From: Candidatus Methylospira mobilis
GTDB lineage: Bacteria; Pseudomonadota; Gammaproteobacteria; Methylococcales; Methylococcaceae
NCBI RefSeq assembly: GCF_009498235.1
Contig: NZ_CP044205.1
Coordinates: 2,109,389 to 2,173,388 of the forward strand
Direction of reading: 5' to 3'
DNA: 64,000 nt
The stretch's first letter is position 1, and every line of letters starts with the position of its first letter. The position numbers were made by a program, and so were the translations under genes. Under the pieces are notes generated by a model that was not told the DNA's origin, did not search any database, and saw only the letters and a program-made list of their open reading frames with translations. Below are positions 2-49,316 of this stretch, piece after piece.

Positions 2-208
2 GGCGCATTTTTTAATCCATTGGCTTTTCTGAAAAGAGGCCTGGCGCCCAAGCCCGACCTGGCGACGGCGATTCCTGTCGAGCCGCATTTTCCGTTGATG
101 GCCGGAATAAGCTTTACGCTTATAACCGTCGGATTTATTACTGCTACGGCTCTGGTTGTCGTTGCGGCGTGGAAATCCAGATCATTGCCGGCTTTGGAAC
201 TGAAGTAG
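2..208 (+). CDS. C-terminal end of an unidentified membrane protein (partial)
   Basis: An open frame enters from the left edge and ends at a TAG at 206-208. The roughly 68 residues contain one hydrophobic helix (about 35 residues before the end) followed by a short basic tail, which looks like the last transmembrane segment of an inner-membrane protein. The true start lies outside the window; a TTG at position 20 is possible but has no convincing ribosome binding site. I do not recognise the family, and with so little sequence the call rests only on the open frame and the hydrophobic segment. Confidence 0.35.
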   Translation, partial: GAFFNPLAFLKRGLAPKPDLATAIPVEPHFPLMAGISFTLITVGFITATALVVVAAWKSRSLPALELK

Positions 209-6840: not shown

Positions 6841-8337
6841 ATGAATTCTAAAAAAATCATGCCTTCTAGCCTTTTTGCAAATAGCAAAATAGTTAAGATA
6901 ATCACGCGCATTCCTGAGATAACCAGCAAGGGTTTAAGATACCGATTCAAAGTAACGATACTGCCTATCGTGTTGCTGGCCTTGCCTGGGTTGGTTGTCA
7001 ACGCGCATTCGCCAGGTCAGGAGGTCAATGGCGAGAGCCAGCTGGAGAGAATCCGGCGATCTGGGGAACTGGTGTTGGCGATTCAAGGCCCTGCGCCTAC
7101 CGATAGCGATACTGCGGTACTGCAGGAAAGCCTCGATTTCGAACTGGCCCAACGTTTCGCATCCAGGCTGGGCGTCAAATTGCGTTATATACAGGGCAAC
7201 TCGCGTCATGATCTGATACGCATGCTGACTAACCATGAAGCCGACTTTATCGCGACAGCAATACCGATTACGGAAGAGCGGCGGCGTACACTGCGATTTT
7301 CTCCCGCTTTCCGGCAAATTACCGAAAAAGTGGTTTTTCGCGCCGAAGCCGGACAAGAAACCCAGAACGGTGCGGTTTTTCGCGACGTTCCGGTCACGGC
7401 GAAGGATTGGGTATTGGGCAGCGAGTCCTACGACCTTAAAAACCGCCTGCGCATGGTTAATGACGGCCTGTTGGACTATACCGTCGTACCATCCGATCAG
7501 ATTGCGCGTATGCAACGCTATTTTCCCAACATTGAAGTTGCATTCGAGCAAGGGGAGCCGCAAGATTTAGGCTGGGCTTTCTCGCAAAGCGAAGATAACA
7601 GCCTTTACAACGAAGTATCCTCATTTTTCGATGCTATCCGACAGGACGGCACGCTGGCCCGGCTCACTAAAAAACATGATGCTGTCTGGATGGCTACCGA
7701 TGCATCGGTAGACGCGGCGCTGAGGTCGCATGTTCGGCAAAGGTTGCCGCGTTATCGCGCACTGTTTCAAAATGCCGGACGAAAATTCGATATAGACTGG
7801 CGTTTGCTGGCTGCAATCGCTTATCAGGAGTCACAGTGGGATGCGCATGCAGTTTCCGCCGAAGGCGTGCAGGGCATGATGATGTTGACTGGAAACACCG
7901 CGCGTGAGCTCAATGTGACGGACCGTTTTAACGTAAGCCAAAGCATCCACGGCGGCGCCGAATATCTCCACGAAATTCTGGAAGGGCTTCCGTCCCCTGT
8001 CCATGGACAGGATCGCATTTGGCTGGCGCTGGCGGCTTACAATATCGGTTATAACCATATCGAGCGCGCGCGCAAGATAGCCGGCCGCCAGGGCCGTGAC
8101 CCCAATGCCTGGGAAAGCGTGAAAGCAGTGCTGCCGCAAATGGGGGGTAAAGCGGCGGCATCTCCCAGGGAGCGCGCCAGAGGACATTTAACGGTGCATT
8201 ATGTCGAAAATATTTGCAGACACTACGACCTGCTGGTATGGCTGACCGATGAGAAGCAAACAACGGCAGCCGGCTCGGCTGCATCGCGAGCACGACCTGA
8301 TGTGAATAAAGGTCGTGCGCTCGAAGGCGGTGCATGA
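6841..8337 (+). CDS. mltF: membrane-bound lytic murein transglycosylase F
   Basis: The protein (498 residues from this start) has an N-terminal hydrophobic export segment, a solute-binding-protein family 3 domain (about 65-285) and a C-terminal SLT lysozyme-like domain (about 305-440). The catalytic glutamate is in AIAYQESQWD (about Glu330), followed by GVQGMMMLT and the AAYNIGYNH block. MltF cleaves peptidoglycan glycan strands to 1,6-anhydromuropeptides in the periplasm. An upstream ATG at 6796 exists, but 6841 has a good Shine-Dalgarno (AAGAGGA, 6-base spacing). The N-terminus has about 35 residues before the hydrophobic segment, slightly long. The amidase AmpD, acting on the same recycling products, is encoded about 2.2 kb further on. 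Confidence 0.9.
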   Translation: MNSKKIMPSSLFANSKIVKIITRIPEITSKGLRYRFKVTILPIVLLALPGLVVNAHSPGQEVNGESQLERIRRSGELVLAIQGPAPTDSDTAVLQESLDFELAQRFASRLGVKLRYIQGNSRHDLIRMLTNHEADFIATAIPITEERRRTLRFSPAFRQITEKVVFRAEAGQETQNGAVFRDVPVTAKDWVLGSESYDLKNRLRMVNDGLLDYTVVPSDQIARMQRYFPNIEVAFEQGEPQDLGWAFSQSEDNSLYNEVSSFFDAIRQDGTLARLTKKHDAVWMATDASVDAALRSHVRQRLPRYRALFQNAGRKFDIDWRLLAAIAYQESQWDAHAVSAEGVQGMMMLTGNTARELNVTDRFNVSQSIHGGAEYLHEILEGLPSPVHGQDRIWLALAAYNIGYNHIERARKIAGRQGRDPNAWESVKAVLPQMGGKAAASPRERARGHLTVHYVENICRHYDLLVWLTDEKQTTAAGSAASRARPDVNKGRALEGGA

Positions 8338-46702: not shown

Positions 46703-46899
46703 CGATAATACCCGCTCACAAAGCGTCACACTGGGTGGCATTGGTATAAGTGAATCGGTCTAACCGTCGTGGAAAAATGCTTCGCGTCCCACTATTAAGC
46801 TCTTTAACCCGGTGATAGCGGTTGCGGCAACACGTTTCGCACAGAGTTATCCACAGGTTCTGTGGATTTAAAAGCAAAATTATGGGCGCATGTCTCGGT
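46703..46899. other. intergenic region with one DnaA-box-like site
   Basis: No gene. Contains TTATCCACA at 46847-46855, part of the short inverted repeat TCCACAG/CTGTGGA. A single site without AT-rich repeats does not support an origin. Confidence 0.4.
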
Positions 46900-46928
46900 T
46901 TGTTACGCCTAAAAAATTGTGATATGGT
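46900..46928 (+). promoter_or_regulatory. candidate promoter of the leader peptide and EamA gene
   Basis: TTGTTA (46900-46905) and TATGGT (46923-46928) are 17 bases apart, each matching four of six consensus positions. A start seven bases downstream falls at or next to the ATG of the leader ORF (46935), which would make that ORF leaderless. The assignment is from spacing and similarity only. Confidence 0.4.
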
Positions 46929-46934
46929 TAGCAC

Positions 46935-47018
46935 ATGAACATAAACACTGTAAATAATTCCATTTTCCTTTCACGACTGTGGTGGCTGGGCCGTAACAAC
47001 CCGACCGCCGTGGTTTAG
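46935..47018 (+). CDS. putative Trp-Trp leader peptide
   Basis: A 27-codon ORF with the tandem tryptophan codons TGG TGG (codons 16-17, in LSRLWWLGRNNPTAVV) and then TAG. It lies 78 bases before the EamA gene. The sequence from the Trp codons to just before the stop can fold into a 10-bp stem (46981-46990 with 47000-47009, GGTGGCTGGG/CCCGACCGCC, one mismatch and two wobbles), followed by a seven-T run (47022-47028) and a second hairpin, ACTGCGG/CCGCAGT (about 47034-47052). There is no Shine-Dalgarno. The arrangement resembles leader-peptide attenuators such as trpL; function is inference. Confidence 0.55.
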   Translation: MNINTVNNSIFLSRLWWLGRNNPTAVV

Positions 47019-47096
47019 CTCGTTTTTTTCTAACACTGCGGATCTTCCGCAGTCTGTTCCATCTTCTGTCGTAAGGTCCGTACAACCGGGGACTTT

Positions 47097-48038
47097 ATGA
47101 ACAATCAGCAACAACAGGGCGCCGCCCTATGCTCGTCGCTGGCAGGCGGCATCTTCGTGTGTCTGGCGGCTATAGGTTTTTCCGTTAAGGCAGTACTCGT
47201 CAAGCTTGCTTATGATTATGACGTGGACGCTGTCAGCCTTCTGGCATTACGCATGGCTTTTTCGCTGCCGTTTTTTGTGCTGATGCTGTTTGCGCCGCAA
47301 AGCGGCGGCGGCGGCGATAAACCGCGCTTTGGCGAGTATCTGCACATGTTCGGTCTCGGGTTGCTGGGGTATTATCTGGCCAGCTATCTGGATTTTCTGG
47401 GATTGCAGTACATCAGCGCAGGTCTGGAGCGTATGATTCTGTTCCTGTATCCCACGCTCGTTATCGTATTGTCGGCGATTTTTTTGCGCCGCCGTATTTC
47501 GGGCAGGGAGGGCGTGGCCCTGATATTAAGTTATATCGGCATCGGAGCGGTGTTTTTTCAACAGATTGTGCTTGATTACTCCATGCAGCAGGAACGTATT
47601 TTGGGAGTCGTGCTGGTTTTTATCAGCGCCGTTAGTTATGCGGTTTATCTGATGGGCAGCGGCCGCTTGATCGTCCGTTTCGGCGCTACGCGTTTTACCG
47701 CCTGGGCGATGATTACGGCAAGTATCGCTTCTCTGGCGCAATTTGCTTTCGACAAGGAACCGGGGTTGCCGGGCTTCGCCGCGCCCGTATATGGACTGGC
47801 TTTGATTATGGCTTTGGTTTCGACGGTTTTTCCATCCTGGCTGCTTGCGCACGGGCTGAAGCGCATCGGGGCCAGCCGTAGCGCCATGTTGGGTAGCATA
47901 GGTCCTGTTTCGACCTGTATATTGGCATATTTTATCCTTGACGAAACACTCGATTTATTGCAGATTGCCGGATTTTTGCTGGTATTGGCCGGAGTGCTTG
48001 TGGTCAGCGTCAAATCGTCCGCGTCAAATCCGCGATAA
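47097..48038 (+). CDS. EamA/DMT-family permease
   Basis: The 313-residue protein has about ten membrane helices in two EamA repeats, with the family features LVKLAYDYDVDAVSLLALRM, GLQYISAGLERMILFLYPTLVIVLS and the C-terminal ASRSAMLGSIGPVSTCILAYFILDETLDLLQIAGFLLVLAGVLVV. DMT exporters move metabolites or amino acids out of the cytoplasm; the substrate is not predictable from sequence. If the upstream leader peptide senses tryptophan, an aromatic amino acid could be its cargo. The start ATG 47097 has a CGGGGAC sequence ahead. It appears monocistronic. Confidence 0.88.
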   Translation: MNNQQQQGAALCSSLAGGIFVCLAAIGFSVKAVLVKLAYDYDVDAVSLLALRMAFSLPFFVLMLFAPQSGGGGDKPRFGEYLHMFGLGLLGYYLASYLDFLGLQYISAGLERMILFLYPTLVIVLSAIFLRRRISGREGVALILSYIGIGAVFFQQIVLDYSMQQERILGVVLVFISAVSYAVYLMGSGRLIVRFGATRFTAWAMITASIASLAQFAFDKEPGLPGFAAPVYGLALIMALVSTVFPSWLLAHGLKRIGASRSAMLGSIGPVSTCILAYFILDETLDLLQIAGFLLVLAGVLVVSVKSSASNPR

Positions 48039-48212: not shown

Positions 48213-48617
48213 ATGAATAACAAAATCAAAAAAAATTCCTTGCGGAAGGTTTTGCTGCTGACGGCCGCTTTCCTGCCCGGGCTCGCGGTTGCAGAAGTAC
48301 AACTAAAGGATATAAGCGAAGTGGCGGGATCATGGACGCTGGAGTCCGTCTCTCCGAGCTTGACCAAGCCGAAAATAGCTGAAAACAGGGTATGGGAGTT
48401 CCGTCCCAATGGTGTTATTGTGACTTCAGGGTTTAACCGTCACTTCGGACGCGAAGACACTCAACAATTCAATTATGCGATTGTTAATGGTAGGATACTG
48501 GCCGATAATCCCGGCCGCCCGGGCAAGAAGGAAGAGTTTGTCGTTTACGAAAAAACCGCGGATAGCATGACTCTGCAGGGCGGTATGGAAGGATTCTATT
48601 TTTTCAGAAAAAAATAA
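48213..48617 (+). CDS. small exported lipocalin-like protein
   Basis: The 134-residue product has a signal peptide (cleaved after AVA near residue 27) and a beta-strand-rich mature part, SEVAGSWTLESVSPS...WEFRPNGVIVTSGF, ending with MTLQGGMEGFYFFRK. This fold pattern, GSWxLE...FxxxGxV, is reminiscent of small lipocalin-like domains, but I cannot confirm the family. A repeat copy begins 24 bases after its stop. It would act in the periplasm. Confidence 0.65.
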   Translation: MNNKIKKNSLRKVLLLTAAFLPGLAVAEVQLKDISEVAGSWTLESVSPSLTKPKIAENRVWEFRPNGVIVTSGFNRHFGREDTQQFNYAIVNGRILADNPGRPGKKEEFVVYEKTADSMTLQGGMEGFYFFRKK

Positions 48618-48848: not shown

Positions 48849-49316
48849 ATGAACAATTATCTGAAATACCTGGATGATTTTTTGACATTCGATGAAGACG
48901 ACAGGAAACTATGGATACGCATGGGCGGCGTGCTTGCTCTCATCGTGCTGTTGTTCTCCGTTTTTACCACGACTTCTGTTTTTTATTATCTGGAGCGCGT
49001 GCTGATTGCCGTTATGGTGATTTTCCTGCCGGGCTATCTGATCATGAAGCTGTTTCTGGATAAGATCAGCTTTAGCGATAATCGGGTAGCGGATAAAATT
49101 ATTGTTTCTTTTGCTATTTCCGTTGTAGTGATGGTAGTGCCCTATTTTTTGACGACTTATTTGCGTCCCTATGCATTCAATACCGACGAAGAAGGCATGG
49201 AAGCGCTCAGCAGAACACACGAAGTGGTATTGTTGTTATTGCTGGTTGTAGTCATAGCTTTCGGCGTTAAATTTTATCAGAACAAAAAAAATAAAGCTGC
49301 AGCGGGCAACAAATAG
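48849..49316 (+). CDS. three-helix membrane protein of unknown function
   Basis: The 155-residue protein starts with an acidic cytoplasmic stretch (MNNYLKYLDDFLTFDEDDRKLW), then has three or four hydrophobic helices, with a conserved-looking FLPGYLIMKLFLDKISFSDN, and ends in a lysine-rich tail. It is likely in the inner membrane. I do not recognise a family; short DUF1616-like proteins share the LPGYLIMKL pattern. It is separated by 13 bases from the DUF2970 gene, so they are probably co-transcribed. Start ATG has a GGGGGATTT sequence ahead. Confidence 0.75.
   Translation: MNNYLKYLDDFLTFDEDDRKLWIRMGGVLALIVLLFSVFTTTSVFYYLERVLIAVMVIFLPGYLIMKLFLDKISFSDNRVADKIIVSFAISVVVMVVPYFLTTYLRPYAFNTDEEGMEALSRTHEVVLLLLLVVVIAFGVKFYQNKKNKAAAGNK

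Follow-up and report, generated by a model that had tools for sequence, protein, structure and literature searches.

A conserved tryptophan leader ORF, predicted to be leaderless, precedes an EamA/DMT-family transporter gene and may tune its expression through mutually exclusive RNA helices

The window analyzed here, a stretch of 64,000 nucleotides from Candidatus Methylospira mobilis, carries on its + strand a gene for a 313-residue EamA/DMT-family transporter (47097–48038; Pfam PF00892, E = 7.8e-35), preceded at a distance of 78 nt by a 27-codon open reading frame (MNINTVNNSIFLSRLWWLGRNNPTAVV, 46935–47018, + strand) with tandem Trp codons, TGG TGG, at 46980–46985, as the first-pass annotation had described. 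A sigma-70-type promoter, TTGTTA-17-TATGGT, occupies 46900–46928 of the same strand, with its −35 box at 46900–46905 and its −10 box at 46923–46928, 6 nt ahead of the leader ATG, and from this spacing the transcript is predicted to start at 46935, on the A of the ATG itself. The target had also been named an exporter, a term that turned out to hold nothing beyond the family label: the gene product matches EamA and reaches no cut-off among curated transporter subfamilies, with weak general DMT matches only, and its sole solved relative by sequence, LicB, gives a weak partial match, so that neither a curated subfamily nor a solved structure could serve as a clue to the cargo. The genes flanking the transporter differ between species and offer no conserved operon partner as a further clue. 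Downstream of it in the window lie two small genes, at 48213–48617 (134 residues, signal-peptide-like start) and 48849–49316 (155 residues, membrane-like), neither of whose products has a match in Pfam or NCBIfam. Upstream, between an AI-2E-family gene and the leader promoter, a perfect DnaA-box consensus (TTATCCACA) is found at 46847–46867, which is the sole + strand copy of TTATNCACA in the window (one TGTGNATAA lies at 8301); it adjoins a perfect inverted repeat, ATCCACAG-GTT-CTGTGGAT, and the whole element may be no more than a hairpin that closes the upstream gene.

The RNA between the leader Trp codons and the transporter start can be divided into six strands, all read on the + strand. 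Strand 1 (46979–46990) overlaps the Trp codons and has as its partner positions 47000–47009 of strand 2 (47000–47015), the 3′ part of which (CCGCCGTGGTT, 47005–47015) alternatively pairs with strand 3 (AACACTGCGGATCTT, 47032–47046). A T-run (47023–47029) spaces the leader stop from strand 3, which in turn has strands 2, 4 or 5 as possible partners: strand 4 (TCCGCAGT, 47046–47053) pairs with 47035–47042 to give hairpin 3:4 (47035–47053), and strand 5 (AAGGTCCG, 47073–47080) pairs either with 47039–47046 of strand 3 or with strand 6 (GGGGACTT, 47088–47095), the ribosome-binding-site region of the DMT gene. The stem over the Trp codons (9–10 bp), the T-run and the second hairpin had been picked out from the single sequence and were all found; strands 5 and 6, which had been missed, tie the switch to the transporter ribosome-binding site.

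Taken by themselves, the statistics of the window are weak, and certainty about the leader comes from comparison with relatives. The window RNA alone folds no better than shuffles (z-score −0.55), and its modest promoter score, 8 of 12 consensus bases, is equaled or exceeded by 2.3% of control ATGs, both of which would suit a chance ORF beside chance hairpins; conservation across two or three classes, accompanied by covariation, refutes that reading and leaves it with a negligible probability. Transporter orthologues were collected as an order-wide set (87 of 301 genomes at E ≤ 1e-60) together with named genomes, and many are preceded by a short ORF that starts with ATG and encodes one to three Trp. 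A short ORF conserved before orthologues, which the first-pass annotation had suggested seeking in relatives, could be read as 70 distinct leaders, most of them from Methylococcales and betaproteobacteria and a few from zetaproteobacteria, in hosts that include Sulfuriferula, Thiobacillus, Gallionella, Methylobacillus, Ferrovum, Sideroxydans, Methylobacter and Mariprofundus. The target is indeed a DMT permease rather than trp genes, and no Trp leader was found before trpE of the window's own genome. The observation made on one sequence holds and is much stronger with its relatives: the leader is a conserved feature of one EamA/DMT transporter family, and we regard it as almost certainly a real regulatory element.

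The first batch, about half of the leader set, was picked by Trp presence, and two checks that do not ask for Trp were therefore informative. A promoter-first scan for leaderless starts regained the same ORFs plus one without Trp, L105, a predicted leaderless leader situated about 96 nt upstream of the transporter in a Gallionellaceae MAG, which reads RLC where others have RLW (MRTPDFTSSASLMRIRLCLAGMAHQRSSYLF); the same MAG holds a second transporter copy (L058). The covariance model R1, a check that is not fully blind since its training sequences contain the Trp codon, detects the window (E = 3.3e-8) as the only significant match in its own genome, and the further members that it found bear Trp in leaders whose position again predicts a leaderless start. 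Of the 47 R1 matches with E < 1e-4 within the order, 46 immediately precede the transporter gene; the same holds for all four strong class-sample matches from beyond the order and for four of the six phylum-sample matches besides the window. Weak R1 matches that do not precede the transporter gene (L142–L146, L190–L192 and L199) were taken as chance; that of L191 sits within a rhomboid-like ORF.

The promoter placement recurs with the ORF. Scored over 12 consensus bases with the −10 box 5–9 nt before the ATG, and with other ATGs of the same loci as controls, a promoter of at least 9/12 precedes 84% of the leaders and 0.3% of the 4948 control ATGs; the homologous promoters read TTGACA-16..18-TATAGT and keep the spacing already noted for the window, where the first-pass annotation had placed transcription initiation at the leader ATG. 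The transcript is accordingly predicted, from promoter spacing, to begin at that ATG, and we therefore propose that ribosomes load onto the leader with no Shine-Dalgarno sequence.

Tryptophan is the only residue kept in all 70 leaders, a figure to be read with the Trp-based choice of the first half of the set, and the first Trp falls at residue 12–19 in all of them but one (residue 30). The tandem arrangement proposed from the window holds there but not as a rule, as 40 of the 70 leaders have a single Trp. Outside Trp the peptide drifts, with Arg and Leu beside it common though not invariant, and the three codon positions differ about equally often between related leaders (228/253/281), with no third-position excess. 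Drift of the peptide and this evenness together fit a codon sensor and argue against an arrest peptide, and Trp decoding is very probably the signal, even though a single Trp codon in 40 leaders is few for a classical sensor and counts against this reading. An arrest-peptide sensor of the TnaC or Erm-leader kind, in which a nascent basic residue and Trp would stall the ribosome for free Trp, indole or a drug, would explain why one Trp suffices in those 40 leaders and why R/K and L cluster at Trp while acidic residues stand at about 1%; it is nonetheless very unlikely, given that R and L are not invariant, the C-termini differ among leaders, the Trp-to-stop distance ranges from 9 to 16 residues and third-position changes are not in excess. 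In TnaC a single Trp of the leader peptide matters, a likeness to the present leaders, and the gene set behind it includes a Trp permease; unlike TnaC, the present leaders have no conserved peptide, no fixed Trp-to-stop distance and no conserved C-terminal proline. Codon sensing does not account for the near absence of acidic residues from the 70 peptides (D+E about 1%) or for their wealth of R, L and S. A further oddity is the sequence CGA-CTG-TGG (alignment A2, columns 1–9), in which even the Arg and Leu wobble bases are conserved; it is kept at the nucleotide level in L001–L003 and in almost every betaproteobacterial leader, and could reflect either base pairing or the use of a CGA codon before Trp.

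Alternative pairing was assessed on an alignment of 38 members. Given no structure, RNAalifold returned a single consensus helix, 3:5, in which 99.2% of cells are paired across the 38 sequences and five of the seven pairs show compensatory double changes. Helix 3:4 has 85.4% of its cells paired, above every shuffle, and helix 2:3 has 90.8%, with one pair read as A-U in 18 sequences and as G-C in 14. When partners were shuffled, the native pairing won in 35 of the 38 members for 3:5, 34 for 3:4, 22 for 1:2, 16 for 2:3 and 12 for 5:6; the 12 for 5:6 are those that beat shuffles at p ≤ 0.05, with many others near 0.1, and this helix is present in the window and in most clades and absent from the Methylobacter clade. 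Individual changes point the same way: in L029 and L043 strand 3 reads GCAGG instead of GCGGG, with matching changes in strands 2, 4 and 5, and in the zetaproteobacterial L198 a joint change, read by eye, gives GGAG in strand 3, CTCC in strand 5 and GGAG at the ribosome-binding site. Because they all use strand 3, helices 2:3, 3:4 and 3:5 are wholly or largely mutually exclusive, with 2:3 and 3:5 overlapping at the GCGG core of that strand; 1:2 and 2:3 likewise exclude each other, and the Trp codons overlap strand 1 of this choice. At the level of sequence comparison, then, the promoter placement, the conserved Trp and pairings 2:3, 3:4 and 3:5 are established, and pairings 1:2 and 5:6 are partly supported. 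The homologous leaders and paired strands thereby support what had been proposed from the window, namely a leaderless Trp leader peptide with attenuator-like exclusive helices.

Which step such helices would control bears on the second hairpin. Transcriptional attenuation, with 3:4 (or 3:5 in Methylobacter) as an intrinsic or Rho-dependent terminator and 2:3 as antiterminator, would draw on the classical 1:2/2:3/3:4 topology, on a fair U-tract after 3:4 in a few members (L056, L083) and on the T-run that follows strand 5 in Methylobacter. At least five T within the 8 nt past strand 4 are, however, found in only 4 of 38 members, the window continues after the hairpin with CTGTTCCA, and no + strand terminator was called, all of which makes this reading distinctly unlikely. 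The caution of the first-pass annotation that termination was not obvious is borne out, as the second hairpin lacks a U-tract and was rejected as an intrinsic terminator; the 1:2 stem combined with the T-run was rejected too, a 13-nt gap separating them. The rarity of a U-tract after 3:4 and the pairing of strand 5 with the ribosome-binding site in most clades favor translation initiation instead, which we infer to be the controlled step.

We therefore lean, with a confidence only slightly above even, toward a leaderless, ribosome-mediated Trp attenuator that tunes the DMT transporter mainly via translation initiation. Transcription would start on the A of the leader ATG, and with ample Trp-tRNA the ribosome would reach the stop codon and mask strand 2, whereupon 3:4 would form and strand 5 would close the transporter ribosome-binding site through 5:6, giving low expression. 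With scarce Trp-tRNA the ribosome would stall on a Trp codon within strand 1, and strand 2 would capture the 5′ part of strand 3 and exclude strand 4; strand 5 could then invade via the open 3′ part of strand 3, so that 3:5 would form, the ribosome-binding site would be free and expression high. A stall should favor 3:5 because strand 2 mimics strand 4 in taking the same side of strand 3 and leaves the side used by strand 5 open. Given the rest of the scheme, this competition among strands makes it somewhat more likely than not that Trp shortage is the ON state. A crude, greedy co-transcriptional folding model yields 3:5 in 20 of 76 stalled and 5 of 76 unstalled runs and 3:4 in 43 of 76 and 69 of 76, respectively, shifts that go as expected and are only suggestive; in the same model exposure of the ribosome-binding site is unchanged between stall states, and the window sequence forms 3:4 in every state. 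At equilibrium the opening energy of the ribosome-binding site shows no consistent difference between stall states (18 one way, 16 the other). For a permease switched on by Trp shortage, the simpler guess is uptake of Trp or a related compound, which would be more natural than export.

The same sensor could in principle work with the opposite polarity, which is arguable because 2:3 overlaps the GCGG core of 3:5. A stall would then form 2:3 and block 3:5, leaving 5:6 to shut the ribosome-binding site, and plentiful Trp would allow 3:5 to free it, so that the transporter would be made as a safety-valve Trp exporter. Some DMT proteins, YddG for one, export aromatic amino acids, which speaks for this version, with the proviso that the match of the present transporter is weak and below cut-off. 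A precedent also exists in the Trp safety-valve exporter described in Bacillus subtilis (PMC13170310). Inverted polarity would, however, leave the conserved 3:4 without a role, the folding model has more 3:5 when stalled, and known codon-stall attenuators generally switch genes on in shortage (see also PMC7298713); we hence consider it unlikely. If true, it would describe an attenuator built as the safety-valve controller of a Trp exporter.

The favored reading, a codon-sensing leader acting on translation initiation, has precedents for its parts, and the combination and the target appear new. Attenuators of the E. coli trpL type likewise place a short Trp-codon ORF over arm 1 of alternative 1:2, 2:3 and 3:4 helices, whereas the present leader is predicted to be leaderless, often has one Trp codon, lacks an intrinsic terminator, carries extra strands 5 and 6 that reach the ribosome-binding site and precedes a transporter, a DMT gene, in place of the synthesis genes of the same amino acid. 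Sinorhizobium meliloti trpL is transcribed from the very ATG of its short Trp leader ORF (PMC7298713), a leaderless arrangement that promoter spacing predicts for most of the present leaders; the rhizobial leader precedes trpE(G) and its terminator releases an sRNA (PMC7298713), in contrast to a leader before a DMT gene with no recognizable terminator. In the LEU element of actinobacterial leuA the RNA of the leader ORF pairs with the downstream Shine-Dalgarno (PMC1262725), and both systems have regulatory codons in a leader peptide, alternative folds and the Shine-Dalgarno region as partner; the LEU element differs in responding to leucine, in using the codon run itself as the Shine-Dalgarno partner, and in its other strands and phylum. 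Neither the window leader nor those of L062 and L007 credibly matched an Rfam family, and in the open-access literature searched we found no paper joining EamA with such a leader peptide. Control by amino-acid leader peptides would extend to a family of DMT transporters in methanotrophs, iron and sulfur oxidizers and relatives, combining a predicted leaderless leader ORF with, instead of a terminator, a switch extending to the ribosome-binding site. The cell probably adjusts this transporter to its tryptophan supply, and the leader suggests that an uncharacterized DMT subfamily carries Trp, or a compound derived from it or made with it.

Within the transporter family the leader is not universal. 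Roughly one in two orthologues from the order has no detectable leader, and four orthologues at about 50% identity (L004, L005, L008 and L009), where none is visible, indicate that it was lost or gained inside one transporter family. At L195 (G1010:C10:329958-330086), a strong R1 match (E = 4e-12), neither a leader ATG ORF nor, by tblastn, a transporter protein after it was found; leader and gene are possibly decaying together. In L020 (G013:C1:484356-485228), a second, broken transporter copy with four in-frame stops and no Trp leader ORF, hairpin-like elements are still retained, namely CACTGCGCGTTTCCGCAG and GGGACCC..GAGGTCCC.
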